Assembly (NCBI GenBank): GCA_014728075.1
Contig: WJMG01000088.1
Location: forward strand, 1 to 41,091
Origin: Candidatus Omnitrophota bacterium
Lineage (GTDB): Bacteria; Omnitrophota; Gorgyraeia; Tantalellales; Tantalellaceae
Reading direction: 5' to 3'
Length of the DNA: 41,091 nucleotides
Shown here: positions 21,347 through 41,091 of the stretch, piece by piece
Layout: each line of letters begins with the position of its first letter
Position numbering within the stretch: the first letter of the stretch is position 1
Translations under genes and position numbers: made by a program
Notes under the pieces: generated by a model
Seen by the model: the letters and a program-made list of their open reading frames with translations, nothing else
Told to the model about the DNA's origin: nothing
The model's database searches: none

Positions 21347-21360
21347 CTTTCACAGGCCTC

Positions 21361-21487: not shown

Positions 21488-21492
21488 TTCAA

Positions 21493-22227: not shown

Positions 22228-22260
22228 AGTATTCAACTGGTAAAGGTTTAGTCTCAGGTC

Positions 22261-22280
22261 CAGGTTTAGCGCTAAACCTG
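22261..22280. repeat. Perfect 20-bp palindrome between lspA and lgt
   Basis: CAGGTTTAGCGCTAAACCTG reads identically on both strands. It is five bases after the lspA stop codon and is flanked by further AGGTTTAG words (22243-22260). No T tract follows on the minus strand. It could be an mRNA hairpin, a protein-binding site or simply the centre of an inverted word array. Confidence 0.8.
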
Positions 22281-22285
22281 AAAAA

Positions 22286-22738: not shown

Positions 22739-22740
22739 TT

Positions 22741-23205: not shown

Positions 23206-26002
23206 TATCGCTCCTTTCCGCGATCACGTTGTCACACCTCCGGCAAAGTTCGGGATGGCGCTTACTTTTTCCTACGGTTTCACTGTAATTCCAGCACCGG
23301 GGGCATTTTTCCCCGGGTGACCTGGAGACCCCTATCATTATCGGCAGCGCCGCCACTTTCTCCATTTCCTTACCGGGCGACTCGAGGACATCTGCCGCTG
23401 ACACCTTGAAAAGATAAGGGAACAATCCCGAATTTGACTCAAGAAAATCCCTCATCCCGTCATCGTCGGAGTACAGGGTAAGAGCGGCCTCAAGGGAACT
23501 TCCGATCAGCCCCTCTTCCCTTTTCACTTCCAGGACTTTCATCACGCTTTCCCTGAGGCGCAGTATCTCTTTCCACCTCCGGTCAAGCTCCGGGTCCGCC
23601 CAGGCGTCCGCCTCGCCCCGGTCCGGCCAGTCGGCCATGTGGACGCTCTGTTCCTTTTTCCTGCCCGGCACATGCTCCCACGCTTCCTCGGCCGTGAAAG
23701 CCAGTACGGGAGCCATTACCCTTACCAGCGTATCCAGTATCCTGAAAATGACGGTCTGGGCCGCCTTTCTTTCAGGGGAACACGGTGAGAGAATATACAA
23801 TATGTCCTTGGCGGCGTCAAGGTAAAAAGAACTGACCTCGTAAACACAAAAGTTGTAGACCGCCCTGTAGACCCTATGAAATTCCCATTTGGAATAATAA
23901 CCGTTAACATCCCTCAAAAGCCCCGAAAGCCTTGAAAGCATCCATCTCTCGAGTTCGGGAAGCTCTTTCCCGTCCACACAATCGTTTTCGGGGTCAAAAT
24001 CATACAGGTTGCTGATAAGGTACCTCAGTGTATTCCTTATCTTCCGGTAGCCGTCCGCCAGGCGCTCAAGTATCTCCTCCGAAAGTTTTATATCCCCTTC
24101 GTAATCACTGGAAGACACCCATAGCCTCAGAATATCTGCCCCGTACTTTCGCATGACCTCTTCCGGGCTGATAACATTGCCCACGGACTTGGACATCTTT
24201 TTACCCTCACCGTCCACCACGAATCCGTGGGTAAGCACTTTCCTGTAAGGCGGCTTTTCTTTCGTGGCCATGGCTGTTATCAGGGCCGACTGGAACCACC
24301 CTCTGTGCTGGTCGGAACCCTCAAGGTAAAGGTCGGCGGGATACGACAACTCTCTCCTGGCGTCGATGACCGCTCTGTGGCTAACGCCCGAATCGAACCA
24401 GACATCCAGAATATTGTTCTCTTTTATAAGCTCCGAGCTCCCGCAGGCCGGGCACTCGCAATTGCCGGGCATAAGGTCCGCTGCCTCTTTCTGGAACCAG
24501 ACATTGGATGTCTCTTTACGCGTCAGGGCCGCGACATTCTTGATAATATCCGCATCAGTGAAAGTCTCTCCGCAGGAAGCGCACTGAAAAGCGGGTATCG
24601 GGACACCCCAGTACCTCTGCCGCGAAAGGCACCAGTCGGGACGCTGCTTTACCATCGCTCCTATCCTGTCCTTTCCCGATGGGGGTATCCACTCAACACT
24701 GTCCTCTATCTTTTCGGATATCCTGCCCCTTAGACCGTTATGGTCAACATTCATGAACCACTGCTCCGTGGCCCTGAAGATTATAGGTTCCTTACACCTC
24801 CAGCAATGAGGGTAGGAATGGTTCATATCCTCGGTAAAGATCAGTGTCCCATCCGCCTTCATACGCTCTATTATCGTCTTGTTGGCCTTTAGAACGAATT
24901 GACCGGACAACCAGTCAATATCATCGTTGAATTTCCCGGAGTTATCAACCGGCATTATTATGGGAAGGTCGTATTTCTTTCCCGTAAAATAGTCATCCTG
25001 CCCGTGGCCGGGAGCCGTATGGACGCATCCTGTGCCTTCGTCTTTGGTGACATAATCGGCCATGACTATGGCGGACTCCCTTCCAATGAAAGGATGTACC
25101 GCTTCCGGCCACCTGGCTGACAGCTGCCTTCCGGTCAACTCTTCGGTTACGGTGTGATCCTCAAGTCCGAACTTCTCCGCGAGCGCCGGGACAAGGTCTT
25201 TCGCGAGTATAAGTTTCTCTTTCCCCGTATCTACCACGGCGTACACGAACTCCGGGTGCACGGCTACCGCGACATTAGCCGGAAGCGTCCACGGAGTAGT
25301 GGTCCATATAACATAATATATATCCTTTTCCCCTTTGGCCCTGAACTTCACGAAAATGGACGGTGAGACCTTATCCCCATACTCCACTTCCGCCTCGGCA
25401 AGAGCGGTCTCGCAGGATGAGCACCAGTTGACGGGCTTAAGGTCCTTGTAAACATAACCTTTTTCATAAAGCTCCGCCAGCGCCTCAAGAATATCAGCCT
25501 CGTAATCCTTCGTAAGAGTCAGGTAGGGGTCCTCCCAGTCGCCGAAAATACCGAGCCGCTTGAACTCTTTAGCCTGTATCCTGACGAATTTCATCGCGTA
25601 TTTATAAGCTGCCTTCCGGAATTCGACCTGGTCGATCTCGTGTTTTGAGATCTTCATCTCCTTAAGAAGGGCGTGTTCAACGGGAAGGCCGTGACAATCC
25701 CATCCCGGGACATATGGGGCCCTATACCCGTTCATGGCGTAATATTTAACACAGATATCTTTCAGTATCTTGTTAAGGACATGGCCCATGTGTATATGGC
25801 CGTTGGCGTACGGAGGGCCGTCATGCAGGATAAATGACTTTCCGGAACTCTCCCTCGCGGCGAGTATCCGGGCGTAAATATCCTCCTTTGCCCATCTTTT
25901 GATGAATTCCGGCTCCCTCTGGGGAAGGTTGGCCTTCATCGAGAAAGATGTCTTCGGAAGGTTCAGCGTATCTTTGTACCCTTTTTTCTTCGTCTCGCTC
26001 AT
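23198..26002 (-). CDS. ileS: Isoleucyl-tRNA synthetase
   Basis: The protein has 934 residues, full length for the bacterial type. The class I HIGH motif reads HIHMGH (69-74) and the KMSKS motif is at 602-606. The editing CP1 domain lies between them, with WTTTPWTLPAN and GTGCVHTAPGHGQDDY. The C-terminus ends in a zinc-binding knuckle (CPRCWNYSETVG and CRRC), a feature of the bacterial-type enzyme. It charges tRNA-Ile and hydrolyses Val-tRNA-Ile. The start is ATG 26000-26002. There is no T-box leader in the 47-base gap upstream, which holds only TTTTAACC words. Confidence 0.98.
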   Translation of the reverse strand: MSETKKKGYKDTLNLPKTSFSMKANLPQREPEFIKRWAKEDIYARILAARESSGKSFILHDGPPYANGHIHMGHVLNKILKDICVKYYAMNGYRAPYVPGWDCHGLPVEHALLKEMKISKHEIDQVEFRKAAYKYAMKFVRIQAKEFKRLGIFGDWEDPYLTLTKDYEADILEALAELYEKGYVYKDLKPVNWCSSCETALAEAEVEYGDKVSPSIFVKFRAKGEKDIYYVIWTTTPWTLPANVAVAVHPEFVYAVVDTGKEKLILAKDLVPALAEKFGLEDHTVTEELTGRQLSARWPEAVHPFIGRESAIVMADYVTKDEGTGCVHTAPGHGQDDYFTGKKYDLPIIMPVDNSGKFNDDIDWLSGQFVLKANKTIIERMKADGTLIFTEDMNHSYPHCWRCKEPIIFRATEQWFMNVDHNGLRGRISEKIEDSVEWIPPSGKDRIGAMVKQRPDWCLSRQRYWGVPIPAFQCASCGETFTDADIIKNVAALTRKETSNVWFQKEAADLMPGNCECPACGSSELIKENNILDVWFDSGVSHRAVIDARRELSYPADLYLEGSDQHRGWFQSALITAMATKEKPPYRKVLTHGFVVDGEGKKMSKSVGNVISPEEVMRKYGADILRLWVSSSDYEGDIKLSEEILERLADGYRKIRNTLRYLISNLYDFDPENDCVDGKELPELERWMLSRLSGLLRDVNGYYSKWEFHRVYRAVYNFCVYEVSSFYLDAAKDILYILSPCSPERKAAQTVIFRILDTLVRVMAPVLAFTAEEAWEHVPGRKKEQSVHMADWPDRGEADAWADPELDRRWKEILRLRESVMKVLEVKREEGLIGSSLEAALTLYSDDDGMRDFLESNSGLFPYLFKVSAADVLESPGKEMEKVAALPIMIGVSRSPGEKCPRCWNYSETVGKSKRHPELCRRCDNVIAERSDNG

Positions 26003-26046
26003 CCCTTTTAACCTTTTAACCCTTTAAGCGTTTAACCTTTTAACCT
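26003..26046. repeat. Tandem TTTTAACC words between mtnP and ileS
   Basis: Four or five copies of a CCTTTTAA or GTTTAACCTTTTAACC word fill almost the whole gap between the mtnP stop and the ileS start. The ileS ribosome-binding region is therefore made of this repeat (AAAGGG on the minus strand). Confidence 0.8.
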
Positions 26047-26049
26047 GAA

Positions 26050-26907
26050 CTATATAAACCCATCAACTATCGGCCGCAGTTTTTCAAGTACTTCCGGGGG
26101 AACTGCCTCTTTGCTCGTGATTATGGCGTTCCTCAGGGCCTCTCCGCACTGACAGTCCCTTTGCTCCGGTATTTCCCGCAGCAGGTTCTTAAGCATTTTC
26201 TTAGCGGCCTCGGCGTTCTTCGCTAGATTATCCATGATCATCTCGACGGTAACATGTTCTTCCTCCGTCCCTGTCCTCCAGCAGTCGTAGTCGGTGACCA
26301 TGGCTATCGTCGAATAGCATATTCCCGCTTCCCGGGCGAGGCGGGCCTCCTGGATGTTGGTCATGCCGATCACATCAGCACCCCAGCTCTTGTAAAGGTA
26401 CGACTCGGCCCTGGTGGAAAAAGCCGGGCCTTCCATGTTGATGTAGGTGCCTCCATCGTGGATCTTTATCTCCAGGTCCCTGTTGGCGGCGTATATCACT
26501 TCCTTGAGCTCCGGACAGACGGGATCGGAAAAAGCGATATGCGCCACTATGCCGTCCCCGAAAAAGGTGGTAGACCTTCCCTGGTTGGTCCTGTCTATGA
26601 ACTGGTCCACAAGCACGATATCGAGAGGCCTCAGCTCCTCTTTAAGGCTGCCCACGGCCGATATGGACACGATCCGGTCAGCCCCCAGGACCTTGAACGC
26701 GTAAACATTGGCCCTGTAATTTATCTCGGTGGGGAGAAGGCTGTGGCTTCGCTGGTGTCTGGGAAGGAACACGACCTCTTTTCCCTCGAGCTTTCCGATG
26801 ACGAACTCGTCGGAGGGTTCCCCGAAAGGGGTTTCCACCTTCTTCGTCTCTTTTATCTCCAATCCTTCTATCTCGTATATCGCGCTCCCGCCTATAACCC
26901 CGATCAT
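26050..26907 (-). CDS. mtnP: S-methyl-5'-thioadenosine phosphorylase
   Basis: The protein has 285 residues. It starts MIGVIGGSAIYEIEG, the phosphate-binding start of PNP/MTAP family 2. FLPRHQRSHSLLPTEINYRA (usually HGRGH or HGKGH in relatives) and NMEGPAFSTRAES with the substrate-binding Met follow, then GADVIGMTNIQEARLARE and a DYDCW near residue 215. It phosphorolyses methylthioadenosine in methionine salvage and polyamine metabolism. The GGGGA ribosome-binding region lies inside a small 5-bp hairpin (TCCCC-GAA-GGGGA at about 26912-26924), which might damp translation. Purine nucleoside phosphorylase activity on other substrates cannot be excluded. Confidence 0.92.
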   Translation of the reverse strand: MIGVIGGSAIYEIEGLEIKETKKVETPFGEPSDEFVIGKLEGKEVVFLPRHQRSHSLLPTEINYRANVYAFKVLGADRIVSISAVGSLKEELRPLDIVLVDQFIDRTNQGRSTTFFGDGIVAHIAFSDPVCPELKEVIYAANRDLEIKIHDGGTYINMEGPAFSTRAESYLYKSWGADVIGMTNIQEARLAREAGICYSTIAMVTDYDCWRTGTEEEHVTVEMIMDNLAKNAEAAKKMLKNLLREIPEQRDCQCGEALRNAIITSKEAVPPEVLEKLRPIVDGFI

Positions 26908-26930
26908 GTTATCCCCTTCGGGGAAGGAAA

Positions 26931-27030
26931 AAGTTAAAAGTTAAAAGGAAAAAGAATAATGTATTCTCTAGAACAAGAACTCCAAGGATTTCATATATTT
27001 TTTACTTTTGCCTTTTTACTTTTTACTTGA
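26931..27030. repeat. Inverted word-repeat between the DUF167 gene and mtnP
   Basis: The left arm contains AAAGTTAAAAGTTAAAAGG words. The right arm (about 26999-27029, partly overlapping the end of the DUF167 gene) contains TTTTACTTTTGCC and TTTTTACTTTTTACTT words and is its approximate reverse complement. The core is about 45 bases. The right arm encodes the last residues (SSKK) of the DUF167 protein. Confidence 0.65.
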
Positions 27031-27258
27031 TCCATCTCCTCCTGTTATATCTATCACCTTATTCCGACTCGTTTCGCCCCGGACTATCCGTACATCGCGC
27101 TTGCGCGCCTTATATACCCTGGCCACAAGCTCTATTACCGCCTTATTCGCCTTACCCTTGTCCGGGGGCGCTTTCACATATATCTTTATCGATCCGTCCT
27201 TTTCCACCATCTCCTCGCGGGAAGACTTCGGGAAGACCTTGGCCTCTATCCTCATCAT
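27016..27258 (-). CDS. DUF167 family protein (YggU-like)
   Basis: The protein has 80 residues with the family phrases RIEAKVFPKSSRE, DGSIKIYVKAPPDKGKANKA and RIVRGETSRNKVIDI. The fold is a small alpha/beta unit; no biochemical function is firmly established. The ATG at 27256-27258 overlaps the yggT stop, with GGGAGG directly upstream; the next ATG (27255) has better spacing. yggT-yggU linkage with proC is a common bacterial arrangement. Its last codons run into a word repeat. Confidence 0.9.
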   Translation of the reverse strand: MMRIEAKVFPKSSREEMVEKDGSIKIYVKAPPDKGKANKAVIELVARVYKARKRDVRIVRGETSRNKVIDITGGDGSSKK

Positions 27259-27554
27259 CCTCCCAGGCGGAACGCTATCCCGTAAAGGACATTAACGATG
27301 AAATTTTTCAGTACGCTCAGCAGAAGAAAAGCCACAATGGGGGAAAAATCTATACCTCCCATCTGAAGCGGCAGCTGCCTGAACGGCGCCAGTATAGGGT
27401 CCGTTACCCTGTAAATGATCTGCACTATCTCGTTGTACGGGTCGGGGTTCACCCAGGATAATATTATCCTTATGATGAGCAGAAAATAAAGCACATTGAA
27501 GAGCAGGTTGAACAAAAGAGCAAGGGCCTTGAAAAACTCAGCGAATATGAACAT
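27255..27554 (-). CDS. YggT family membrane protein
   Basis: The product has 99 residues. I choose the ATG 27552-27554 (MFIFAEFFKALALLF) because GGGAG lies about seven bases upstream; a TTG two codons earlier overlaps the proC stop but has no spacing. It has two membrane segments (about 5-28 and 68-92) and the family phrases IRIILSWVNPDPYNEIVQII and TDPILAPFRQLPLQMGGIDF. YggT proteins are linked to osmotic tolerance and, in SepF-containing bacteria and plastids, to division or nucleoid distribution. The specific role here is unknown. Confidence 0.9.
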   Translation of the reverse strand: MFIFAEFFKALALLFNLLFNVLYFLLIIRIILSWVNPDPYNEIVQIIYRVTDPILAPFRQLPLQMGGIDFSPIVAFLLLSVLKNFIVNVLYGIAFRLGG

Positions 27555-27556
27555 GG

Positions 27557-28357
27557 TCAACTCCCGGAGATCTCTTCGGATCTTTTCTTGGCGGCCATAA
27601 CGGCCTTCTGAACGATGTCCTTAAGCCCCTCTTCGCCGAACACCCTGAGGGCGGCTTCCGTCGTCCCGCCTTTGGATGCCACTTTATTCACCAGAGCGGA
27701 CGGGTCCTCACCCGACTCCGCCAGATAAGCGGCCGAACCCGCTATGGTCTGGGTCGCTAAGCGTTTGGCCGTACCCTCGGAAAGCCCCGCCTTTATCCCC
27801 GCCCCGGCCATGGCGTCCGCCAGGTAGAAGAGGTACGCCGGCCCGCTCCCCGAAAGCGCGGTGACGGCATCCATTTCCTGCTCAGAAACTTCCATTACCT
27901 TTCCCACCGACGAAAAGAGCGCTTCCACGGGCTCCCTGTCCTTCACGAGCTCGTTACAGGCGATACAGGTCATGCTTTGCGATACGAAAGCCGCGAGATT
28001 GGGCATTGCCCGGGCTACGGGAAGCTGCCGGCCCAGAAGCGAAATTATCCTGTCTATGGTGACCCCGGCCATTATGGAGACCAGTGTCTGTTCTTCAATA
28101 TAAGGGGCGATTTCCTTTAAAAGGGCCCCGGAATCCTGGGGTTTGACCGCCACAAGCAAAAGGGAAGAATCCCTCAGAAGCCCCTCCATCCCCTTCATAT
28201 GAGCACCGGTCTCATCGGAAAGGGCCTGGGCCTTGTGGGCGTCCTTATCGTAAAGGAAAATACGGCCCGGGGGCACTATGGAATTATCCGCCATACCTCT
28301 GACGATGGCGCTTCCCATGTTCCCGCAGCCTATGACGCCTATAGTAATATCTTTCAT
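27557..28357 (-). CDS. proC: Pyrroline-5-carboxylate reductase
   Basis: The protein has 266 residues. The N-terminal Rossmann motif is GVIGCGNMGSAIVRGM and VAVKPQD follows near residue 75. The C-terminal dimerisation domain carries LSGSGPAYLFYLADAM and KGGTTEAALRV, the P5C-binding loop. It reduces pyrroline-5-carboxylate to proline. It is the first gene of a proC-yggT-DUF167 unit, with its own promoter. The start is ATG 28355-28357, with no clear ribosome-binding site in the AT-rich leader. Confidence 0.96.
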   Translation of the reverse strand: MKDITIGVIGCGNMGSAIVRGMADNSIVPPGRIFLYDKDAHKAQALSDETGAHMKGMEGLLRDSSLLLVAVKPQDSGALLKEIAPYIEEQTLVSIMAGVTIDRIISLLGRQLPVARAMPNLAAFVSQSMTCIACNELVKDREPVEALFSSVGKVMEVSEQEMDAVTALSGSGPAYLFYLADAMAGAGIKAGLSEGTAKRLATQTIAGSAAYLAESGEDPSALVNKVASKGGTTEAALRVFGEEGLKDIVQKAVMAAKKRSEEISGS

Positions 28358-28920: not shown

Positions 28921-31900
28921 TTACGCCTTTATAAGCACCTGGTCCCTGTAGATAATGAACTTCTCGTACATGTCGTCCGTAAGCGGCACGGTCGGCAGGA
29001 ACTCTCGTATCCAGCCCTCGAACCCGGCTTCCTGGTTCAGCGTGCGTATCGCTATCTCAAGCGCCTGCGCGAACGAATAAATACCCTTAACATTGTCGTT
29101 TATCACTATAAGCGGTACCTCGATATCATATTTTAGCGTCGCTTTAGTCCAGTCTATGCCGTTACCGCGGATAACAGCGAAAAGGTCTTCCGTGTTCATG
29201 GCCTTCTCCCCCGTATCCCTTTTAGAGTTCAAGCACCTTAAAAGTGCCTTTATCTCCGTATCGGGCCCCCTGAAGTTCTTATCCAGTCTGCTCTCGTGCT
29301 CCCATTTCCTTACAATGACGGCTTCCGTGGCCGGGACGACACTTTCGATAAGGTCCCGCATGGCCTCCGTTTTCTCAAGGTTAACTTCGCCCTGCACATA
29401 AAGGACTATCTTTCCTCCGTCGAGTATATCCCTTTCGCCTATTATCTTTCTGAGCGATTCCTCAAGGTCGCAGATAATAGCGTTCTCGATAATATCATCC
29501 GCGTAAAGGATAAGCGATCTCTTTTGCCTGACTTTGACTTCCGCCGTCGCCTCGCCCTTGCTCGCGAGTCCCTGCATCTGGTCAAAAACCGGCTTCACAC
29601 TGCTCTCATAATATTCCCCAAACCCGGCTTCCTTAACTTTTTCCTTTACCATGGATAGCATATTATCGAATCTCTCTCCCTGATACTCCCTTATCTTCTC
29701 AACGGTCTCATCGAACCACTCGAGCCCCTTGAACTCTTCCAGATACGGTTTTATAACCCTCACCGGCTCCTCAAGGTAAGAGGTATTGTTCCTCACCGTA
29801 AGAAGCGTCCACATCGCGGTTATCAGACTCTCGGGTATATCTATCGGAACTCTTTCTTCTTCCAGACCGAGAAGTATCCTGACAAGCCGCTCTCTTTCTT
29901 CGGTAAGTTCCTGAAGGCGGTCCTTTACATTCGTTTCCTCTTTACTAAGGCTTACAAGACGGTCTATTTCCACGATGATATCATAGATCTGAACAATTAT
30001 TTCTTCATACTCTTCTTTTTCCTTACTTTCACCTGACCCCTTGCCTTCATCTGAATTTTCCGTCTCTTCCTGTCCCTTCAGAAAACCTGCCTTAATCCTT
30101 TCCGACTCCAGCCTGTCGGCGATCTCAGATCGGCGCTCTTCATTCTTAATATTTTTCGTGCTCTTTTCCGCCTCTTGGAAAGTTTCCCTCGCCTCTTCCG
30201 TCATACCCGCACTCGCTTGAGCCACTCCGATATCTATTAATCTCTCGGTCCCAAGCACTACTTTCCTGGAGCCTCTGATCCCTTCCAGGGATCTCTTTGC
30301 CTCTTCAAAAGTCCTCCTGGCATCATCGATGCCTCCTTCTATATGTGCTTCTCTTTGCGCTATATATATAAGCAGATCAGCTTCCTCCCCCTTGTTTTTT
30401 GCAGATGTCCTCGTTACCTTTTTAGCGATCTCAATTTTCTTCTTTGCTTCCTCTCCAGGCAATCCTGCCCGCACCTGAAGTTCTACTATCCGGCAGATCG
30501 TCAAAACATTCTGATTCTCTTCTGCTACCATCCCCGTCTCTTCCAGCGTATTCCGCATCTCATCTATAATTCCCGCCTCATAACATCCTTCTGCAAGATC
30601 TATTAACCGATCAACATCATCTTTATTGTTTTGGGTGCGGAAAAGAGCTTTTATCTCCTTGAACATTTTTTTAGACCCCTTGACATCGCCTGCAATAGCC
30701 ATTCCCGCGGCCAGTTTTATCAACATCTGCCGGTCAATTTCAGATTTTTTCCTGTTCATTATCTCATCATAAAATCTTCTAAGCTCTTCCCGCATACCGG
30801 CCCTTGCTTTAGCCATAACTATTTCGTACCGAACTTTCCGGACTTTTTCCTTTGCTTTCCTGTAAACCTTTTTAGAGTTCCGGAGTATCTCTTCAAGATG
30901 TTCTGCTTTTTCAAACAATTTCTTTATCTTCGCAGCATATTCTTCCGTAAGCTCTCCAGAACTCTCTTCTACGGTCCTCGGACCGTCGGCCGTGGTCTGT
31001 TCTGCCCGGACCTTCGCCTTTTGCCCTTCGCCTTTTTCCTTGACCTTTTCGATCTCCACATCCAAATCCACGACCCTCTGCAGCATCTTCCTGCGCTCTT
31101 CTAATTTCTGAATTACGGGCTCTTCCGTGGCCTCCTCATCTATCACCTGAAACCCGACACCCGACACCTCTACTTCTCTATTCTCAACTCTAGATCCTCC
31201 GCTCTCATCGTCCGCGCTCAGACTCTCCGCCCTGACACTGCGCGCCGTGCGCCGCGCGCTGTCCTTATGCAGATCAAGCTCGTATTTCACCGCCCGACCG
31301 TCCCCTATCAAGAGATACAGTTTGTTCTTATCGGCGCGGACCTCCCTTATGGTCTTTCCCCTTCTTTCGGACTCATACCGATCGTCCCTGGGGAACTCTA
31401 TGATATCGTAAATTTCCGCGCCCTTATCCCTGTACACATAGACCCTGTTCTCTTCTTTTTTCAGAGCAAAGACCGTGCCGTTCTCGAAAGCCACTACCTG
31501 GTCGAACGCATCGATGTCCTCAACATCGAGCTCGTCCGGAGAAATCATATCGGCGTCCGCGTACCTTTCATCCTGAAAAAAGACAGCACTTTTCTCTTCG
31601 ACAGCAAGCCAGTCAGAGGCAACAACACTGTGGCCCTGGCGCAGGACCTCAAACGCCCCTTCCCCGGCCCGCGCGCCGCCCTTATCAAGGTCCAGCTCGT
31701 AAAAATGTACCGTTTCCTCCGCTCCTTTTATATAAAGCAGCCCTTCCTCGACCCGCATATCTTCGGCGCCCGTCAGCTTGTTGTGCTTTATAATATCGTA
31801 GACCCTGCCGTCGGGAAACAATATCCACACTTCATTCTTTTGCCTGTCCAGAACATACCTCTTTCCGTCAAGACCTGTTGTCTCGGTCACAATGACACCT

Positions 31901-34900
31901 TCCGGGAATATACTCTTTATCTTTTTCGTGTCATCCACTAAGCCTACCGACTGTACACTGTGCCCGGGGAGCAGGACCTCATCGGGCTTTTCTTCGGACG
32001 CGGCCCGCTCTTCCTCTGACAACAGTTCCATGACCAGCTTATATTTCTCTTCGGCGATCTTTTCTGCGTCGTTTTCGGCTTTTTCTTTTATGGGGAGCCA
32101 CGAAGCGAATTTCTGACCGGTACCGGGAGTATACTCATTAAACCTTTCACTTACGGCAAATGTCCCATCGGGCTCAACATCCAGCACATGGATGTGGCCC
32201 TCGTGGCCGATAAGGCCGCCGGATGCATCCTTTACATCGAATGTAACAAGAATACCTGCACACTTTCTATCATCCCACAGCTGAACGACGGTATCATATC
32301 CGGTGTCAGCATTATCCACCTCGAACTTACGGATAGCTTCTTCCGCGGCGGCTATCCAGTCAAAGGGATCAAGATCCACTCCCGCGCTCTCCAGCCGCTC
32401 CGTGATAATCCCTGCCGGAGTAAGTCCGGTATCCTCGGCCATCTCAGACCCTTCCTTTAGTTCATCCTTTATCCCCGGTCCCTTATCCCTTATTAACTCC
32501 TCGACCCTCGCCAATTCCTCGCGCGCCTCCTCCGGCGTCATCGTCGTCTTCTCCTGAGCTTCTTTTTCAACCTCCTCCGTTCCTTCTTCCAGAAGCCCCG
32601 CCAGAAGCATGTCTATATCCGCCTTCTGCTGCGGCGTAAGGTCCTCGGCGGTCAGAGGGCCGCTATCCGGAGTCTGTTCTACTCCTCTCTTCTTAGCCTC
32701 TTCGTAATTCTCGAACCCGAGGACGAAATTCGTAGCATATTCGTCATCGGCGCCTAATGCATAGAGGGTTCTCCTCGCGCCTTCTTTTTCCGGCCCCCGG
32801 GCGCTGATGACCGCCACCGGGCCGTAAACCTCGTACTCCTCAAGATCGATAACATCGACCAGATCCCCTTCTGGGGAGACGATCAGCACCCTGGAAGGCT
32901 CGTCGTCGATATAATACACATAACCTTCTTCATCCTCGTTATTCTTCTCCATTTTGTAAAAATCCGATCTTTCCACATTGCCGACATCGACGATAGTGTG
33001 ACCGAATTCCAGACCTCCGGGCAGACCTTTCTCGATCTTTTCGGAGATGGACTCTCTCTTTTCCATACTGTTACCTGCGGCCTGCTTCCCACCATCCCTC
33101 ACGACCTCATATCTCTTTATCCATCCCCCCTCTCCGAAAGGCCCTTCACCCACATAGAATACATTCGGCTCATCCGTTCCGAAAAAGGAAAACTGCGCAT
33201 TTTTCTGCGGGTCAAAACTGAACACCTTCATGTCAGATGTCATTATGTGCAGCCTGTCTTTCGATCTTACCCCGGGCTGATCCGCATCAAGTTCATGGAT
33301 AAGCACATTATCCGCATCGTCGATAATAACCGTTTCGGAATCTATCGACCCGTGAAACAGGGTTTCGAGAGAAATGATGCCGGGCCTCCCATCATTGCCT
33401 CCCTTATCCGTATTGAGCCCTGAACCGTCCGGTCTTATGATCAATACATCGCGCCAACCGAAAAGATAAATATCTCCGTCTTTGTCGGCCGCTATGGCCT
33501 TTGGGACAAAATGGTTTCCGACCCATTTTTCCACCTCTTCTATCCTGAGATCCCCGCCGTTAAAAGCAGCGTTAAGCTTTTCCGCGTCGGGAGTAAGGGA
33601 TATTATGGATTTGAGCTTTCTTTCGGGAGAAATTATTATCGCGAAGATATTGCCGTCCCTGTCCCGCTGGATCTCCCTGACAACATACTTTCCCTCAACA
33701 GATATACCGTATGTATTCAATATGGTCTCAACGGCTTTATCTGTCCAGACATGATCCCCGGAAACCTGGATGAATTCTTTATCTTCTATCATCTCTATAT
33801 TTTCTTCGGCGTTTATCTTATTAAGTATTGCCTTATCTTCGGGAACGCTCTCATCGAGTTTCCTGACTTCAATACGCGGGCTCGCATCCGTAGACTCATC
33901 TGCCGTCTCATCCAGGGCCAGCTCCGCGAATTTATCGTAATCAACGGCCACCGGAAGATCCTCTTCCCATACCCTTGAAGCGTCAAGAGGATTGATACAC
34001 ACCTGCTTCGCGGATATGGACATTATCCTGCCGTTTTCATCATACCTCATGTCATCCCCTCCGAATGTGATCGTAATACCGTTATTGACGGCCTCTCCGC
34101 CTTCTCTAATATCCCGGGATCTGACCAGCGTCATCCTTGTTTTGTTCACAACAAGCTTACCATCCCCATCGAACTCAAAGGGCGTAATATAAAGTTCCCT
34201 TTTACCTTCTTTGTTCTTGCCGAAAACTATGCCACCCACAGTTTTACCGTTCTCCTCAAGGGTCCACCATTTTTCTTCTTCATCAGTAAGGTAACGGCCC
34301 GAGAAAGACTCAGCGAGCTCCTCTATAAATTTATCCAGTTTTGCTTCGCTTATACGCCTTTTGCCGGCTTCCTCAACAAGTTTCTGCCTGACTGAAACAG
34401 GCTTGCCAACCGTCGGCTCTCGACTGTCGACTATAGACTTGCCTTTCGCCCGGGATATCCCGAACTCCTCATTCTCTTTGACCAGTTCCCGCCAGACACT
34501 GTAAAGCCTTTCCATGGCCCTGAGGTAATAGGCCTGCTCGTCCGGGTCTATCGGATCAACGGCATGACGGAGCGCGCAGGCAAGATACATCTCGCGGGCG
34601 AGCAGGATGTCCTTCCTGAAAATATCCTTGAGCTCCTCCATCCCGGCCCCGTCAAAATGGTCCAGGTCATCCTTTTCCCAGTGCTCGGGGCGTATCTTAT
34701 TCCATCTTTCCGTTATCATATCCGTCTTATTAACAAGTTCCGCAAGGTCTTCCAGGGACAAAGGGCCCCCGTCGATCTTTGACCCGAGTTCATCTTTAAG
34801 CGAAACGGCCTCTTCGACATCGGGGTATTTGTCCGAGAATATCTTTAAAAGCAGGTACCAGTGGAGTATCTGCGTCAGACCCTCTATAACCTCGTGCAGG

Positions 34901-37900
34901 AGCGGATTTTTTATCTCCAGCCCGTCAAGACCCTGCTTTATTCCGGGAACGCGGCCCCGGACATATTCCCCGTCCTCTATATTAACGGCCATACAGTTAA
35001 GCAGCTTGACCGGATCGTACCCTCCGTCAAAAACGCTTATACTGTACTCGTGGTCCTGGAAATCTACCTGTTTTCCTTTCAGTTTTTCCAGGGGTTCATC
35101 GCGTTCTATGAAGGATTCCGGCCATTCGTTCTCCAGCAGATGAGCCTGTATCACCGCCTGGACATTGCGCATTTTCTCGGCGTTTATATCGCTGTGTTTT
35201 CCTGAGCCCTCTCCCGAGCGTTTTTCGCACAGGACCTCCAGGACATGCCATATTTCTTTCAGCTTATGCATCGCCAACAGGCTCTGCTCAAAATCCTTTA
35301 CATCCCAGTTCTTTTTCATATCGTTTATCGTTTTCTCAAGATCGCCTATCTTTATGCCGACGGCCCCGCCCCGGGTATTCTCCTGCAGGAACCTGAGAAG
35401 TTTGTCCAGTTTGAAATCCTTTGTATCGGGTTCCCTTAAAAGCGGGAGTTTTTCGACTATAACACCTTCCCTTCCGCCTTCATCCGAAAGATAGGCATCT
35501 ACGGCATCCGCCCCTTCTTCCTCCGAATAAAGCCCGGCGGAAACAAAAGCGTCCTTTATCGTATTAGTCCATACCGCTATATCCCCGGCCTCGCCTTCCA
35601 TCACGAAATTCCTGAGGAACATATCAAGGAGAAGCTCCTGGGCCGGGCCTTCGTAAAAGGCCATTTCCGTATCCCAGTAACTGTGTATCATCTTGACCAG
35701 GTTCTTTAAGGCCCTCAGGCCCGGTATCCTGGGCGGAAGCTTCTTGTTGTTGGGGTCTTCCCTTTTCATTTTTATAAGCTCCTGGACAGCTCCCACGAGC
35801 CCTTGCCACTGGACCTCACCGTCAACTACAACGGGGTCGCCGTTTTCGTCCTTTTTTTCCGCGCCCAGAAGGGCCGGGTTTACCTGGAGATCGTTCCTCG
35901 AAGATACCATTATAAGGTAATCAAGTATGCCTTCCGGACCCAGGGCGTCGAACCGCAGAACGGCGTGGCGTTCGATGAACTCGTCGCTCATGGGTTTTAC
36001 AAAGAATTTACCCGTACCCGGAGGGTTGATGGTGTGTATTACCCCGAAACGCCCGTCGCGCTCCCGTCCGAGTTTCGTACCGTCCGGATAGACCATGAAC
36101 TGTCTCTCGATCGCCTCGTTGAGAACCCCCATCACACCGGGTTTTCCCTGTGTGCTCTCTTCTATTACTACGGTCTTATTGTCCCTGAGACCCACGGCGA
36201 CCGGACCGTAGTCGTGCCCGGAGACCCCTCCCCGCAGGTACGGCTTGAATGTAAGTTCTTCCTTATCCGTGTCCGGCTTTATCTCCACCTGCGGCGTTTC
36301 GGGTCCGTTGAGCAGTTCCCCGATGGCGGAGGCCAGAAAACTCTTACCCGTACCCTGGTCGCCCACGAACACTAAACTCTTGCCCAGGGCCCTTACCTGA
36401 AGGGCGTAATAGAGCGCCGTGCTGTTTGCGGGGTCACCGGTCCCCAGCCAGTAAAGTATATCCTCGGGAAGCCCGCGTTTTTCGAATTCCTCCCGGGCTT
36501 CCGGATGGATCCATATCCGCACCGTATCGAGTTCCTTAACCTCCCCGTAGGCGGAGCGGGGCTTTACCACGAGGTACTCTCCGTCAAGCGTAAAACTGTC
36601 CTTGTCAAGCTTCACCGAAAGCGGGCCATCCGCGTCCCTTATCCCCCGGTCCCCTCCCCTTGTGGGCGGCGTTTCGAACTGGTCGAGAACGGCCTTCTGC
36701 TGGCTCCTTTTCTCCAGGGGTTTCATGTCGTCCGCCTCGAAGTTGAACCACAGGCCGCATACACTCAGCGGAGCCGCGTCCCATGTTCCGGGGAACATCA
36801 TTATATGCTCCAGTATGTTAGCTATAACACGCGGTGACGGGGCCCTTTTAAGGTTCTGTCCCGGCTTCGAGTGGGGCAGGAAGCTTTTGTCCCGCATAAG
36901 CCTTTCCCATCCGCTGAAATCATTTTCGGTAAGTTCGGCCTGCTGGGCGGAATCGTAGCCCGCGAAAGTCAGCCTCATCGGCCAGGCGATATCGACAAGG
37001 ACATCGATAGCGTCTTCAAGCCGCTTCATCTGTTCCCTGTTGTTCTCCGGCCTGAACCCGGGGTATCGTTCTCTTAATTTCTTCTCCACAAGCTTTAAAT
37101 GGAGCTGTTTTTCCTCCGTGGGGCGTTTCCAGTAAAAATCTATATCGTGCAGCCTGTCCTGCGTCGCCTGGTCCGGCGCCATCGCGCCGGCTATGCCTTT
37201 TCTTCTGGTATTAAGCGTAGCCAGTATCCTTGCCCTCTGGTGGTTGGGGAGGGTCTTGAGCTCTTCCCTGCCGCCTGCCCGCACCCACCTCTGGTGTGTC
37301 TTCCCGGCTATGGAGGTCTTGAGAGAATTAAGGACCTTGGGCTTTACCTTGTTTATCTCGTCCACGACGACCCACCCTCCGTTGTGAAGGGCTTTGTTGA
37401 CCGGCGTGTAAAGGTGTCCGGAAGTAAGGCTCTCTTCCACTCCGAGGGTCTGGTACTCTATAAGGTCTTCCGGCTCCATGTCCTGGTTACCGGCGACGAA
37501 ATACACTTCCTCGTTCATAAGGTGCGCCGCGGCCCTCACGAGCTCGTCCTTACCTAATCCGGTCTCGCCTTTTAGCCGGACTATCTTGCCTTCCCAGTCT
37601 TCGGCCTTGTCGAATTTCTCTATTTCAAGGTCATAGAGTATTTCCATTTCCCCGGCCTCCTCCGCTTCCTTAACGGCGGCTACCCTCCTGGACGCCGGAT
37701 CGAATATTACCATGCCACCTGTCCCGCTGTCGTAATTTATCGAGGCCAGTTCCGAGAATTTTCCGTTAACGCCGGTCACGGGGCTCCACTCCCCGCTGGA
37801 AGTCTTTACGAAAAGGTTCCCCATCGCGTCTATCCGCCAGGAGATACCATCCTTTTCAAAAAGCTTATGGCCGTCGGACTCTTCGCTTGCCGGAGGCGCG

Positions 37901-40900
37901 CCGTATATGTCGAATTCCCTGTCTTTCGCCCAGTTACCGTCGTTGTCCTTACTCATCAGTAATACGCGTTTATTGTCCACGCTCCTTATGTAATGTCTTC
38001 CGTCGGGCGAATAAGAGGTATACGCGACATCCTGGAGATAAAGCGCCTGGAATATCTCGAGAAGTCTGCGCTCGTTGCCGTCGTCATCGACCGTCACGGT
38101 CGCGGGCACATTGGCTCCGCCGGGCCCTCTCTGCCACCTGAGCTCGTGTTCGACACCCCGTTTGTCCTTTCGTTTCCATACGAGCCAGTCCACACCGTTG
38201 ACTTCCTGATAATAGAAATGTCTGTAACCCGTAGGCCTGAGCGGCGGTTCGTCCGTTCCTTCGGGCCTGTTCTTGAGATATATATCTCTTCCCGCCTTGA
38301 AAAGCATATCGAGGACCGGAGATGAGACCACGGGCAGAAGCCCGAGCGTGACCTTCGCAAGCACTTCCGCCCACGAAATATCGTAATTCGGAGGCGCTAT
38401 GCTCTCGGCAAAAGCTTTTGCCACCTTTTCCGGAAGATCGCTGAGGTCCTTATTGTCCGGAAGTATAGAGCGGTACTCCCCGAACGCGTTAAGGACGCTT
38501 TTCTGATTACCGCTGTCGTTCCCCGCGCATACACCGAAAACGCTTACGCCGTTATCGTCCGCGTATTCGAGAGTTTCCCTGACTTCGGTCTTGTCTTCAA
38601 AGTCTATATCACCGTCGCCTACAAGGAAAAGTATCCGCCTGGCCTTTTCCTCGGAACCTGCCGGTTCGTCGGATTCGGCAAGCCTGGTGACGAACTCGCC
38701 CAGCGCGGCCATCTGGTCGGTACCTCCGGAGGCCTCCATTTTTTTGAGAGCGTCGTAAATAAGGCGCTCTTTCCGGCATTCCCCTATCTCGGAACTGGTC
38801 TCGTGGCTTATAAAGAGTTCGCTTCCCCGTTCAAAAGCTCCTATCTCGAACTCTATCGGGCCGTGGCCTCTCCTTTCCAGCTCGTCGTTCACATCGAAGA
38901 CAACCTCCAGAAGCAGGAATGTCATCAAACGCGCGTATATTATGGCGTTGTTCCATCCCATGCTACCGCTTTTATCTACCAGGAATGTAAGTTTTACAGG
39001 GAGGGGCTTAGTGTCCCTTCTTTTCACGAAAGCGTCCTGGCCAAAGACGCCTCTTATGGCCTTTTTCAGTATGCCGGAGTACCTGGAGGAAAAATTCTCC
39101 GAATCTTCCGCCGGGACAACAAGGCCTTTGACGACCTCCTTCATGCTGTCAAGAAGGTCTTCCCCGAGCATGTCCTTCCAGCCGTTGTACTCGGCAAGCT
39201 CCTTTGCATTGAGCCCCGTCCTCTCCATGTCGGCAAGAAGCTCCCTCTTTTTCTGAGCCTCAAGCCAGGCCGGATCTATTTTCGTATCGAAAGTCCGCCC
39301 CTCGTAATCGTCCGTCATTTCCTTGTGATCGGTGTTTTCCCTGTCGGTGTTTTCCATGATATTCTTCAGGGAAGTCATGTCAGATGTGTCCACACCTTCC
39401 GGGAGTTCCAGCCTCTCCGGAGAAGGTCCGCCTTTTGCCTCTCGCCTTTCGCCTTTATCCTGGCCCGTGGTCTGTGGCCCGTCGGCTGCGGCCTTCTCTC
39501 CATCGCCTTCAGCCTTTTGCCCTTCGCCTTTTGCCTGATCCGCGGTCTGACCCTTAGCCTGATCCTCAGATCCAGGACTTCCTCCACTTTTTCCTTTTTC
39601 GCTGCGCCTACGGCTTGCGGATCCTGCGTCGCTTCGCTCCTGGTTTTCCTTTTTCCTTTTTCCTTTAAGGTCTTCTATCTCCCTCTCCAGCTTCTCCGCC
39701 TCCCGCTGAAGCTCATCGAGCGACTCTCCGGCTTCGCCCAACCCCTGTTTTATCCCTTCACATCCTTCCTTTATCCTTTCCGCCTCTTCCTTTATGGCAT
39801 CGGCTACCTGGGACATCTGTGTCGGGTCCTGGGCACCTTCCGAATACTCTTTAAGCTTTTCCGTAAGGCGCTTCAGCCTGTTAAGCTTCTCCTGGAGCTT
39901 CTTTATTCTTTCATTAACCTCTTCCGAATCATTAGCAAGCTCACTTGAGCTTTCCTTCATCCCCCTGGCCATATCCGGATGGGGAAGTTCTCTTTCGCTT
40001 TCAAAAGCACCGTCCCGGATATTATCCGCCGTTTCCTCAAGGGCCCTGCCTTTCTCACTAAGTTCTTTTCCGGCCTCTCTGAGGTCCGAAGCCTTTCGGT
40101 CTATCTCCCCGGCCGCGTTCTTTCTGTCCTCGGAAGACCCCGCCTGGTCCGGAACGCCTTTCTTCACTTCATCAGATCCCCTGTCTATATTATCCGCTTT
40201 TCCCGCTATATCACTGAGTTTTTCCGACATACTTTCGAGCGCCTGCTCTATGTTCTGCATCATATCTTCCAGGTCGGAGGGTCCTTCACCCGGAACTCCT
40301 TTACCTCTACCTTTACCTGTGCCTGTACCTTTACCTGACGGCTGATGAGCCCCCTGATTCATTGCCGCCGAGGCAAGCTGCTGCATGACCTGCTCCATTA
40401 CTGCTTTCTGGACATCCTGAGGAAGAGATTCGAACCAGTCCTCCACCTGCCTCATTTGTTCCGGGGTCATATTTCCCGGGTCCATCTCACCCTGACGCAT
40501 ACTGCCGTCCCTCTGGAGCTGTTCCATCATCTTCCGCGCCTTCTCGGTCTCGATGTCTTTCTCGAAAAGTTCGCTGTAAACCGGCCATATTTCCGCCACT
40601 ATGACCTCGTATATACTTTCGTAAGACGAAAATTCGTTCACCCTGAACATGATCTTGCTCCATCCTTCAAACGACCTCCTGACAGCTTCTTTTAATGGTC
40701 CGTCCGCCTTCACTCTGGGGTCTTCAGGAATGCTCCTCCCATCCTTTACCGGATCGTAGCTGCTCCACCTGTAAAGAAGCGTATCCAGATACTGCAGATG
40801 AAGCGGATATGAGTTAAAAAGCTCTTTCTCCACCCTTTCGCTTCCCAGGTCGAATTTCTCCTCAAAGACCTTATGTATGGTCTCCGGGATATGCTTGTAT

Positions 40901-41091
40901 TTCTCCCGGTATTCACTTTCGCTGTTTACCTGCCTTTGCGTAGCCGGAAGAGCCATGTAGATCGATCTGGGTATAAGGAGCGCGTCCCAGAGAACGCCGA
41001 ACTGCGGAAGATCGAACATTTCCCCGTGTGCCTCGATTATTTTTTCATCGCTTGAGTTCTGTGCCCTGTAAAGAGCGAGAAGAAGGTTCCC
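28921..41091 (-). CDS. Giant multidomain vWA / dual AAA+ (MoxR-midasin-like) protein, 5' end outside window
   Basis: The frame is open from the right edge to the TAA at 28921-28923. The first Met in the window (41017-41019) gives 4,032 residues, and 24 further codons upstream are also open without a stop, so the gene is at least 4,056 codons and partial. Numbering from that Met: a helical region then Q/E/K-rich coiled coils (1-660), a vWA domain (666-877), a beta-rich segment (890-1120), AAA+ module 1 (1127-1374), AAA+ module 2 (1534-1717), helical linkers (1720-2280), beta-propeller-like strands with DG turns (about 2330-2770 and 3010-3250), TPR-like helices (3372-3647) and an unrecognised C-terminal domain (about 3750-4032). 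AAA+ plus vWA pairing is known from MoxR/CoxE, magnesium chelatase and midasin, where ATP-driven remodelling acts on a client held by vWA. The client here is unknown. No export signal can be judged without the true N-terminus. Confidence 0.85.
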   Translation of the reverse strand, partial: GNLLLALYRAQNSSDEKIIEAHGEMFDLPQFGVLWDALLIPRSIYMALPATQRQVNSESEYREKYKHIPETIHKVFEEKFDLGSERVEKELFNSYPLHLQYLDTLLYRWSSYDPVKDGRSIPEDPRVKADGPLKEAVRRSFEGWSKIMFRVNEFSSYESIYEVIVAEIWPVYSELFEKDIETEKARKMMEQLQRDGSMRQGEMDPGNMTPEQMRQVEDWFESLPQDVQKAVMEQVMQQLASAAMNQGAHQPSGKGTGTGKGRGKGVPGEGPSDLEDMMQNIEQALESMSEKLSDIAGKADNIDRGSDEVKKGVPDQAGSSEDRKNAAGEIDRKASDLREAGKELSEKGRALEETADNIRDGAFESERELPHPDMARGMKESSSELANDSEEVNERIKKLQEKLNRLKRLTEKLKEYSEGAQDPTQMSQVADAIKEEAERIKEGCEGIKQGLGEAGESLDELQREAEKLEREIEDLKGKRKKENQERSDAGSASRRRSEKGKSGGSPGSEDQAKGQTADQAKGEGQKAEGDGEKAAADGPQTTGQDKGERREAKGGPSPERLELPEGVDTSDMTSLKNIMENTDRENTDHKEMTDDYEGRTFDTKIDPAWLEAQKKRELLADMERTGLNAKELAEYNGWKDMLGEDLLDSMKEVVKGLVVPAEDSENFSSRYSGILKKAIRGVFGQDAFVKRRDTKPLPVKLTFLVDKSGSMGWNNAIIYARLMTFLLLEVVFDVNDELERRGHGPIEFEIGAFERGSELFISHETSSEIGECRKERLIYDALKKMEASGGTDQMAALGEFVTRLAESDEPAGSEEKARRILFLVGDGDIDFEDKTEVRETLEYADDNGVSVFGVCAGNDSGNQKSVLNAFGEYRSILPDNKDLSDLPEKVAKAFAESIAPPNYDISWAEVLAKVTLGLLPVVSSPVLDMLFKAGRDIYLKNRPEGTDEPPLRPTGYRHFYYQEVNGVDWLVWKRKDKRGVEHELRWQRGPGGANVPATVTVDDDGNERRLLEIFQALYLQDVAYTSYSPDGRHYIRSVDNKRVLLMSKDNDGNWAKDREFDIYGAPPASEESDGHKLFEKDGISWRIDAMGNLFVKTSSGEWSPVTGVNGKFSELASINYDSGTGGMVIFDPASRRVAAVKEAEEAGEMEILYDLEIEKFDKAEDWEGKIVRLKGETGLGKDELVRAAAHLMNEEVYFVAGNQDMEPEDLIEYQTLGVEESLTSGHLYTPVNKALHNGGWVVVDEINKVKPKVLNSLKTSIAGKTHQRWVRAGGREELKTLPNHQRARILATLNTRRKGIAGAMAPDQATQDRLHDIDFYWKRPTEEKQLHLKLVEKKLRERYPGFRPENNREQMKRLEDAIDVLVDIAWPMRLTFAGYDSAQQAELTENDFSGWERLMRDKSFLPHSKPGQNLKRAPSPRVIANILEHIMMFPGTWDAAPLSVCGLWFNFEADDMKPLEKRSQQKAVLDQFETPPTRGGDRGIRDADGPLSVKLDKDSFTLDGEYLVVKPRSAYGEVKELDTVRIWIHPEAREEFEKRGLPEDILYWLGTGDPANSTALYYALQVRALGKSLVFVGDQGTGKSFLASAIGELLNGPETPQVEIKPDTDKEELTFKPYLRGGVSGHDYGPVAVGLRDNKTVVIEESTQGKPGVMGVLNEAIERQFMVYPDGTKLGRERDGRFGVIHTINPPGTGKFFVKPMSDEFIERHAVLRFDALGPEGILDYLIMVSSRNDLQVNPALLGAEKKDENGDPVVVDGEVQWQGLVGAVQELIKMKREDPNNKKLPPRIPGLRALKNLVKMIHSYWDTEMAFYEGPAQELLLDMFLRNFVMEGEAGDIAVWTNTIKDAFVSAGLYSEEEGADAVDAYLSDEGGREGVIVEKLPLLREPDTKDFKLDKLLRFLQENTRGGAVGIKIGDLEKTINDMKKNWDVKDFEQSLLAMHKLKEIWHVLEVLCEKRSGEGSGKHSDINAEKMRNVQAVIQAHLLENEWPESFIERDEPLEKLKGKQVDFQDHEYSISVFDGGYDPVKLLNCMAVNIEDGEYVRGRVPGIKQGLDGLEIKNPLLHEVIEGLTQILHWYLLLKIFSDKYPDVEEAVSLKDELGSKIDGGPLSLEDLAELVNKTDMITERWNKIRPEHWEKDDLDHFDGAGMEELKDIFRKDILLAREMYLACALRHAVDPIDPDEQAYYLRAMERLYSVWRELVKENEEFGISRAKGKSIVDSREPTVGKPVSVRQKLVEEAGKRRISEAKLDKFIEELAESFSGRYLTDEEEKWWTLEENGKTVGGIVFGKNKEGKRELYITPFEFDGDGKLVVNKTRMTLVRSRDIREGGEAVNNGITITFGGDDMRYDENGRIMSISAKQVCINPLDASRVWEEDLPVAVDYDKFAELALDETADESTDASPRIEVRKLDESVPEDKAILNKINAEENIEMIEDKEFIQVSGDHVWTDKAVETILNTYGISVEGKYVVREIQRDRDGNIFAIIISPERKLKSIISLTPDAEKLNAAFNGGDLRIEEVEKWVGNHFVPKAIAADKDGDIYLFGWRDVLIIRPDGSGLNTDKGGNDGRPGIISLETLFHGSIDSETVIIDDADNVLIHELDADQPGVRSKDRLHIMTSDMKVFSFDPQKNAQFSFFGTDEPNVFYVGEGPFGEGGWIKRYEVVRDGGKQAAGNSMEKRESISEKIEKGLPGGLEFGHTIVDVGNVERSDFYKMEKNNEDEEGYVYYIDDEPSRVLIVSPEGDLVDVIDLEEYEVYGPVAVISARGPEKEGARRTLYALGADDEYATNFVLGFENYEEAKKRGVEQTPDSGPLTAEDLTPQQKADIDMLLAGLLEEGTEEVEKEAQEKTTMTPEEAREELARVEELIRDKGPGIKDELKEGSEMAEDTGLTPAGIITERLESAGVDLDPFDWIAAAEEAIRKFEVDNADTGYDTVVQLWDDRKCAGILVTFDVKDASGGLIGHEGHIHVLDVEPDGTFAVSERFNEYTPGTGQKFASWLPIKEKAENDAEKIAEEKYKLVMELLSEEERAASEEKPDEVLLPGHSVQSVGLVDDTKKIKSIFPEGVIVTETTGLDGKRYVLDRQKNEVWILFPDGRVYDIIKHNKLTGAEDMRVEEGLLYIKGAEETVHFYELDLDKGGARAGEGAFEVLRQGHSVVASDWLAVEEKSAVFFQDERYADADMISPDELDVEDIDAFDQVVAFENGTVFALKKEENRVYVYRDKGAEIYDIIEFPRDDRYESERRGKTIREVRADKNKLYLLIGDGRAVKYELDLHKDSARRTARSVRAESLSADDESGGSRVENREVEVSGVGFQVIDEEATEEPVIQKLEERRKMLQRVVDLDVEIEKVKEKGEGQKAKVRAEQTTADGPRTVEESSGELTEEYAAKIKKLFEKAEHLEEILRNSKKVYRKAKEKVRKVRYEIVMAKARAGMREELRRFYDEIMNRKKSEIDRQMLIKLAAGMAIAGDVKGSKKMFKEIKALFRTQNNKDDVDRLIDLAEGCYEAGIIDEMRNTLEETGMVAEENQNVLTICRIVELQVRAGLPGEEAKKKIEIAKKVTRTSAKNKGEEADLLIYIAQREAHIEGGIDDARRTFEEAKRSLEGIRGSRKVVLGTERLIDIGVAQASAGMTEEARETFQEAEKSTKNIKNEERRSEIADRLESERIKAGFLKGQEETENSDEGKGSGESKEKEEYEEIIVQIYDIIVEIDRLVSLSKEETNVKDRLQELTEERERLVRILLGLEEERVPIDIPESLITAMWTLLTVRNNTSYLEEPVRVIKPYLEEFKGLEWFDETVEKIREYQGERFDNMLSMVKEKVKEAGFGEYYESSVKPVFDQMQGLASKGEATAEVKVRQKRSLILYADDIIENAIICDLEESLRKIIGERDILDGGKIVLYVQGEVNLEKTEAMRDLIESVVPATEAVIVRKWEHESRLDKNFRGPDTEIKALLRCLNSKRDTGEKAMNTEDLFAVIRGNGIDWTKATLKYDIEVPLIVINDNVKGIYSFAQALEIAIRTLNQEAGFEGWIREFLPTVPLTDDMYEKFIIYRDQVLIKA
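30079..30906 (-). other. TPR-like helical repeat block of the giant protein
   Basis: Residues 3372-3647 contain about six or seven helix-turn-helix units of 35-40 residues with an A..AGM..EAR..F.EA pattern, for example VAQASAGMTEEARETFQEAE and MAIAGDVKGSKKMFKEIKAL. The DNA here looks more AT-rich than the flanks. It is probably a protein-binding surface. Confidence 0.7.
30972..31050 (-). repeat. Intergenic-type words inside the giant gene (GGTCTGT and GCCTTTTGCC families)
   Basis: The plus strand reads GACCGTCGGCCGTGGTCTGT then CTTCGCCTTTTGCCCTTCGC. These are the same words as at 21465-21487 and 14147-14176, yet they lie within the open frame. They encode a Lys/Glu/Gly-rich linker (KGEGQKAKVRAEQTTADGPR, residues about 3324-3350). 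Confidence 0.7.
34400..34452 (-). repeat. Intergenic-type words inside the giant gene (GTCGAC/GCCTTTCGCC)
   Basis: AACCGTCGGCTCTCGACTGT, then CGACTATAGACTTGCC and TTTCGCCC, resemble intergenic GGTCTGTCGACCG and GCCTTTCGCC words. They encode a short linker, RAKGKSIVDSREPTVGKP. Confidence 0.45.
35869..36420 (-). other. AAA+ module 2 of the giant protein (dynein/midasin-like)
   Basis: Canonical Walker A GDQGTGKS begins at residue 1553. The Walker B equivalent reads TVVIEEST (about 1614-1621), with Glu in place of the usual Asp before the catalytic Glu. FGVIHTINPPGTGKF resembles the sensor-1 strand of MoxR and midasin proteins, and SDEFIERHAVLRFD the region that follows it. Confidence 0.78.
36898..37641 (-). 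other. AAA+ module 1 of the giant protein (MoxR/AAA_5-like)
   Basis: Walker A-like GETGLGKDEL begins at residue 1151. The residue after GK is Asp rather than Ser or Thr. Walker B VVVDEINK is intact at about 1220. ARILATLNTRR resembles sensor 1 and a helical lid follows (HLKLVEKKLRERYPG). Nucleotide binding may persist but hydrolysis is questionable. Confidence 0.78.
38389..39024 (-). other. vWA domain of the giant protein
   Basis: Residues 666-877 from the first Met in the window. LTFLVDKSGSMGWNNAIIYA carries the MIDAS DxSxS motif (D682, S684, S686). SGGTDQMAALGEFV supplies the MIDAS Thr and FLVGDGDIDFEDK the third acidic position. All metal-site residues are intact, so divalent-metal-dependent ligand binding is expected. 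The long acidic and Q-rich segment before it recalls CobT, BchD and NorD. Confidence 0.85.
39427..39670 (-). repeat. Long intergenic-type word array inside the giant gene
   Basis: From the left: CCTTTTGCCTCTCGCCTTTC words, GGCCCGTGGTCTGTGGCCCG words, CCTTCAGCCTTTTGCCCTTC words, GATCCGCGGTCTGACCC, and CTTTTTCCTTTTTCC words. Each has a counterpart in the gene-free gaps. They encode the low-complexity linker before the vWA domain (about residues 450-532, rich in K, G, E, Q, A). Confidence 0.75.
40298..40341 (-). repeat. Tandem ACCTTTACC words inside the giant gene
   Basis: Six to seven 6-base words of the type TTACCT, CTACCT or TGTACC encode GKGTGTGKGRGKG (about residues 227-241). The same ACCTGTACCTTT words form one arm of the pilB-pilC intergenic repeat at 4081-4100. 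Confidence 0.75.

Follow-up and report, generated by a model that had tools for sequence, protein, structure and literature searches.

The window analysed here, the complete contig (G000:C80) of 41,091 nucleotides from a 2.1-Mb Candidatus Omnitrophota assembly, carries on its minus strand an open frame of 4,056 codons that is truncated at its 5' side (28921..41091). The locus raises the question of whether such a frame encodes one protein, and if so, what that protein does and on which side of the cytoplasmic membrane it works. We see about an even chance that it encodes a single-chain MoxR/vWA remodelling machine, to which a putative zinc metalloprotease is fused and which is directed either to the cytoplasmic membrane or across it.

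A single giant frame and its relatives

The frame contains no stop codon, and its 5' side ends at the contig edge. At the frame's own base composition, the chance of 4,056 stop-free codons is about 10^-93, and the codon-position GC is even along the whole of 28921–41091. Moreover, relatives of the same family (37–57% identity) keep the same domain order in a single frame, indicating that we are dealing with a true single coding unit rather than an assembly accident. The giant single chain of at least 4,056 residues proposed in the preliminary description is thus borne out. Among relatives whose start is visible, G015:C49 is the closest, and its chain runs for 925 residues ahead of the position that corresponds to residue 1 of the window's translated chain (P0001). 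On this basis, the contig edge cuts off about 925 N-terminal residues, and the full-length protein is expected to have about 4,980 aa. The layout given earlier, with a vWA domain before two AAA+ modules in one chain, stands, but it lacked these N-terminal residues. Recovery of the upstream sequence had been suggested as a check; searches of the source genome for the missing 5' part, with the N-termini of two relatives and an HExxH profile as queries, came back empty, and the N-termini of relatives were seen instead (see below).

Homologues in other Omnitrophota have the domain order within one frame each, the frames ranging from about 2,900 to 35,009 aa, so that the search for the same order in other genomes, also suggested earlier, gave a positive answer. 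When 84,980 species genomes were scanned, within the limits of the search patterns, full-length core homologues turned up in Omnitrophota alone (Ca. Omnitrophus magneticus among them), and the matches outside the phylum were short AAA matches only. The distribution within the phylum is patchy: whole-genome search detected the HExxH domain in 10 of the 246 genomes of the class, and strong core matches occur in 4 of the 285 genomes of the phylum, one of them from another class. Frames with the HExxH domain or core parts are as long as 10,855, 12,225 and 35,009 aa, the longest (G220:C9; L064, L065) containing the HExxH, vWA and AAA parts internally in the same order.

Several observations concern these frames and their surroundings. 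The 35,009-aa frame also appears by eye to contain PEP-utilising-enzyme-like sequence. The G003 homologue is immediately preceded by two further giant frames, of 2,398 and 3,270 aa (G003:C33, L016:1-17010), which contain phosphomannose isomerase/uridine kinase-like and phosphotransacetylase/GNAT domains; the second frame has a signal-peptide-like start. The neighbours of the giant frame at window positions 20420-28357 are housekeeping genes, namely, P5C reductase, nucleoside phosphorylase, a class I tRNA synthetase, a DksA/TraR-type zinc finger protein, signal peptidase II, Lgt and pseudouridine synthase. We dropped a conserved gene neighbourhood as a line of evidence, since the flanking genes vary by genome and are mainly housekeeping.

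Domains of the window chain

All features below lie on the minus strand. Alignment with seven homologues identifies residues 1-200 (40492..41091) as the end of a conserved helical region that follows the HExxH domain in relatives. It is succeeded by a Gly/Lys/Glu-rich coiled-coil linker (residues 201-689; 39025..40491), whose matches to Rad50/SMC-type coiled coils are all below the cut-off; the homologues have a similar type of linker at this place. The vWA domain (residues 690-898; 38398..39024) was assigned by profile and structure model, and it matches TRAP/integrin I-domains in a profile search of solved structures. Its MIDAS is complete, with the DxSxS motif at residues 706-710 (38962..38976), and D706, S708, S710 and the partners T791 and D826 are unchanged in 9 of 9 homologues. 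Between the vWA domain and the first AAA+ module, a hydrophobic helix (residues 907-938; 38278..38373) was noted by hydropathy as a possible membrane segment, and is isolated and of low confidence in the structure model; it is followed by a beta-rich middle domain (residues 951-1156; 37624..38241) seen in the model and in the alignment.

The first AAA+ module, AAA1, is CbbQ/NorQ-like and covers residues ~1160-1473 (36673..37614), as judged from Pfam, motifs, profile and model. In its P-loop, GETGLGKD (37546..37569), Asp takes the place of Thr/Ser, and Asp or Gly (GKD/GKG) occupies this site in all nine sequences compared, two of which also have Ser for the Walker B Asp. The second module, AAA2, is CobS-like and covers residues ~1530-1830 (35602..36504; motifs, profile and model), with the Walker A sequence GDQGTGKS (36340..36363). 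Among nine aligned sequences, its Walker A, Walker B E/D-E, sensor-1 Asn and ERH/ERC arginine are kept wherever the stretch is complete. In the most distant members (G198 and G220), the P-loop of AAA2, like that of AAA1, differs from GKS/T.

Both modules belong to the MoxR clade. Pfam AAA_5 matches two stretches of the chain (E 2e-28), and among solved structures the profile of AAA1 matches CbbQ (1.9e-7) as well as NorQ, while that of AAA2 matches CobS (1.9e-6). The AlphaFold model, built from nine sequences, has a mean pLDDT of 77.9, and its best Foldseek matches are dynein motor domains, matched in their tandem AAA region (E 1.9e-16 over ~770 columns). Since the overall TM-scores against dynein are near 0.3, with an rmsd of ~10 Å or more, this match concerns single folds and not the whole arrangement. 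The preliminary description had placed AAA+ folds at residues 1127-1374 and 1534-1717, and its folds are right, with the module limits now as given above. Thus the structure prediction that it called for, by AlphaFold and Foldseek, returned AAA+ folds and not their absence.

These motifs also bear on the view that the protein is a large extracytoplasmic adhesin or scaffold whose AAA+ modules are non-catalytic structural units. Across Omnitrophota, giant proteins of which large parts are predicted to be extracellular are common and have been proposed to serve adhesion (PMC10066038), and the atypical AAA1 P-loop, together with the loss of the Walker B Asp in two members, would fit such a role. 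However, even members that have diverged to 30-57% identity keep the nucleotide-binding and hydrolysis motifs of AAA2, and the MIDAS does not vary; we consider this view improbable.

Beyond AAA2 come long arms that are not conserved among homologues. Propeller-like and helical-repeat-like by eye, they occupy residues 2083-3751 (29839..34845), for which we detected neither a Pfam match nor a phmmer match to the relatives' arms. The equivalent arm of G003 has NHL repeats, which form NHL propellers, and the arms of other relatives read by eye as WD40-like or HEAT-like repeats. Hence, of the propeller-like and TPR-like parts claimed earlier, the long variable arms stand, with the NHL repeats of G003 in their favour, but the window's own arms have no Pfam or phmmer match to go with them.

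The chain ends in a previously undescribed C-terminal domain (residues 3752-4056; 28924..29838) that recurs in other Omnitrophota proteins. It makes up the last ~200–300 residues of the chain, stands at the very C-terminus of about twenty Omnitrophota proteins that are 609–6,953 aa long (including those of L090, L091, L092, L093, L095, L099, L100, L102 and L103), and has no relatives in Pfam or PDB. Several of these proteins are ATP-using enzymes. Most of these proteins with a visible start have a signal-peptide-like N-terminus too, and their middles include protein kinase, GHKL ATPase, PPDK-type ATP-grasp, methyltransferase, acetyltransferase, amylase and WD40 domains. Accordingly, NTP-using domains behind signal peptides are a recurring arrangement, not one peculiar to the window gene. 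Two of the proteins (L048:5582-11221 of G000:C35, and L090:1138-9234) have a Ser/Thr protein kinase, then a strong membrane helix and then the shared C-terminal domain; the start of the L090 protein is signal-peptide-like, which would place its kinase outside. In G003:C55 (L019, L020), a giant frame is broken by a masked N stretch into parts of 5,204 and 6,552 aa, which joined would come to more than 11,000 aa, with the shared C-terminal domain at the end.

N-terminus of relatives and likely placement at the membrane

All nine relatives with a visible N-terminus have a signal-peptide-like start by a simple and lenient heuristic rule, which also accepts 59 of 176 background frames from these data; two of the nine have their vWA/AAA core off the contig. 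A TLAP/TLSP-like motif recurs after the start in most of them. An HExxH domain lies ahead of the vWA domain in 7 of 7 aligned homologues, where the neighbouring residues are invariant, and in further members as well. It is known only from relatives, as its region falls in the stretch that the window lacks. A second HExxH lies farther upstream in several members, and the visible part of the distant member G281 has no HExxH at all. The model of the domain has a pLDDT of 74 (moderate confidence), no PDB entry matches it by fold or profile, and its matches to Pfam metalloproteases are weak; since no solved fold matches, the metalloprotease reading is drawn from the HExxH motif and these weak matches. 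By comparison with the relatives, the window's own chain would likewise have started with a signal peptide and carried an HExxH domain. In the relatives, these two elements suggest that the protein likely acts at the membrane or beyond it, and that a protease has probably been added to the machine.

The full order seen in the sequences is a signal-peptide-like start and an HExxH domain (both seen in relatives only), the coiled-coil linker, vWA, AAA1, AAA2, the arms and the C-terminal domain. For all steps beyond the domain assignments, we infer a scheme by analogy with the solved NorQD complex, in which the AAA+ pore is entered by a VWA finger and the linker is remodelled (PMC13036017). In this scheme, a client protein would be gripped by the arms and the vWA MIDAS, and the chains would assemble as an AAA+ ring powered by ATP hydrolysis in AAA2, with a mainly structural or regulatory role for AAA1. 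The linker might then carry force to the vWA-bound client and loosen it, and the loosened client could be offered to the HExxH domain for cleavage or let go. Such remodelling fits the profile matches to CbbQ, NorQ and CobS of the MoxR/vWA clade. Of the ATP-driven remodelling machine with arms envisaged in the preliminary description, the single-chain vWA-AAA-AAA core and the variable arms are supported by profiles, motifs, the model and homologues, but remodelling itself is still a matter of interpretation.

As to the side on which the ATPase works, which is the surprising aspect of this protein, either everything may lie outside, or the vWA domain may lie outside while the hydrophobic helix brings the AAA+ modules back into the cytoplasm. 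The former arrangement would leave an ATPase behind a signal peptide with no obvious source of ATP, and the latter would have the membrane lie between vWA and AAA+, which is not the case in NorQD. A doubtful but possible version of the former is an AAA+ motor outside the cytoplasmic membrane that uses ATP on the far side or in a target cytoplasm (prey, host or a special compartment). It would be one of a set of exported ATP-using Omnitrophota proteins, a set that we tentatively extend to the AAA+ machine and to Ser/Thr kinase, ATP-grasp and GHKL ATPase domains. An N-terminal signal with an LSP/TLAP motif and, in many members, the shared C-terminal domain could conceivably, though at no better chance, be its marks. 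An ATP/ADP translocase, which might trade ATP with a pool outside, has been reported in some Omnitrophota. We rejected it as the ATP source of an exported machine because none of the 19 genomes searched from the family has it.

The latter arrangement would amount to a membrane-spanning machine with HExxH and vWA outside and AAA1-AAA2 and the arms in the cytoplasm, acting across the membrane, and we think it likewise rather unlikely. It would solve the ATP problem, as cytoplasmic ATP would be used. A hydrophobic segment follows the vWA domain directly in 12 of 14 homologues, with KD values up to 2.1 in G220, G008C398 and G007, and the charge downstream of the helix in P0001 is positive. On the other hand, the segment of P0001 is weak (KD 1.5, with an insertion cost estimated as unfavourable) and about as hydrophobic as a helix of the vWA domain, it is missing in two homologues, one of which (G003C55) has a signal peptide, and vWA would be parted from the AAA+ modules that it touches in NorQD.

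Comparison with known systems

A module of HExxH, vWA and two AAA parts with largely intact catalytic residues offers the first testable biochemistry for some of the giant Omnitrophota proteins. If the ATPase truly lies beyond the cytoplasmic membrane, then the assumed need of bacterial AAA+ machines for cytoplasmic ATP would fail in Omnitrophota, and the shared C-terminal domain would suggest a new tag for sorting or function. Our literature search found no relevant paper on Omnitrophota together with MoxR; preprints were outside this search and could contain a prior description.

Kaur et al. described MoxR/vWA conflict (defence-type) systems, one kind of which also joins MoxR, vWA and a beta-propeller (PMC7159879), and the window gene might be such a system fused into one gene. 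However, those systems are multi-gene sets with a divergent vWA domain and the P-loop variant GXXXTAKS (PMC7159879), whereas here we find one gene, an intact MIDAS and the P-loops GETGLGKD and GDQGTGKS, signal peptide and HExxH both occur in relatives, and the window neighbours are housekeeping genes. This origin is therefore already disfavoured, and we regard it as highly improbable.

The remodelling machine that we favour resembles NorQ-NorD, CbbQ-CbbO and CobS-CobT in its AAA+ profiles, complete-MIDAS vWA domain and charged linker. Nevertheless, those are separate cytoplasmic proteins, whereas here one chain has vWA ahead of two unlike AAA+ modules, about 2,000 residues of arms and, in relatives, a signal peptide and HExxH. 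In every member with complete data the partners are in a single frame, and since the usual feature of separate partners is lacking, the chain is not an ordinary MoxR/vWA member. As in midasin (Rea1) and the dynein heavy chain, one giant chain holds multiple AAA+ modules that belong to the MoxR/dynein clade, and midasin also has a MIDAS domain. However, midasin and dynein are cytoplasmic or nuclear with six AAA+ modules, and the MIDAS domain of midasin is C-terminal, while here Pfam and the model gave two modules, not six concatenated ones, with vWA upstream. FtsH-type AAA+ zinc proteases likewise combine an ATPase and HExxH in one membrane-targeted chain, but they have a classical-clade AAA module, HExxH C-terminal to it and no vWA, whereas here HExxH lies far upstream and has no fold match. 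Finally, the giant ORFs of Omnitrophota described by Seymour et al. (2023) were reported to have few annotated domains and are suspected of a role in host contact (PMC10066038). The proteins studied here belong to the same phylum and have giant frames, the 35,009-aa frame of G220 containing the module, but differ from those ORFs in having a conserved module with catalytic motifs in a fixed order.
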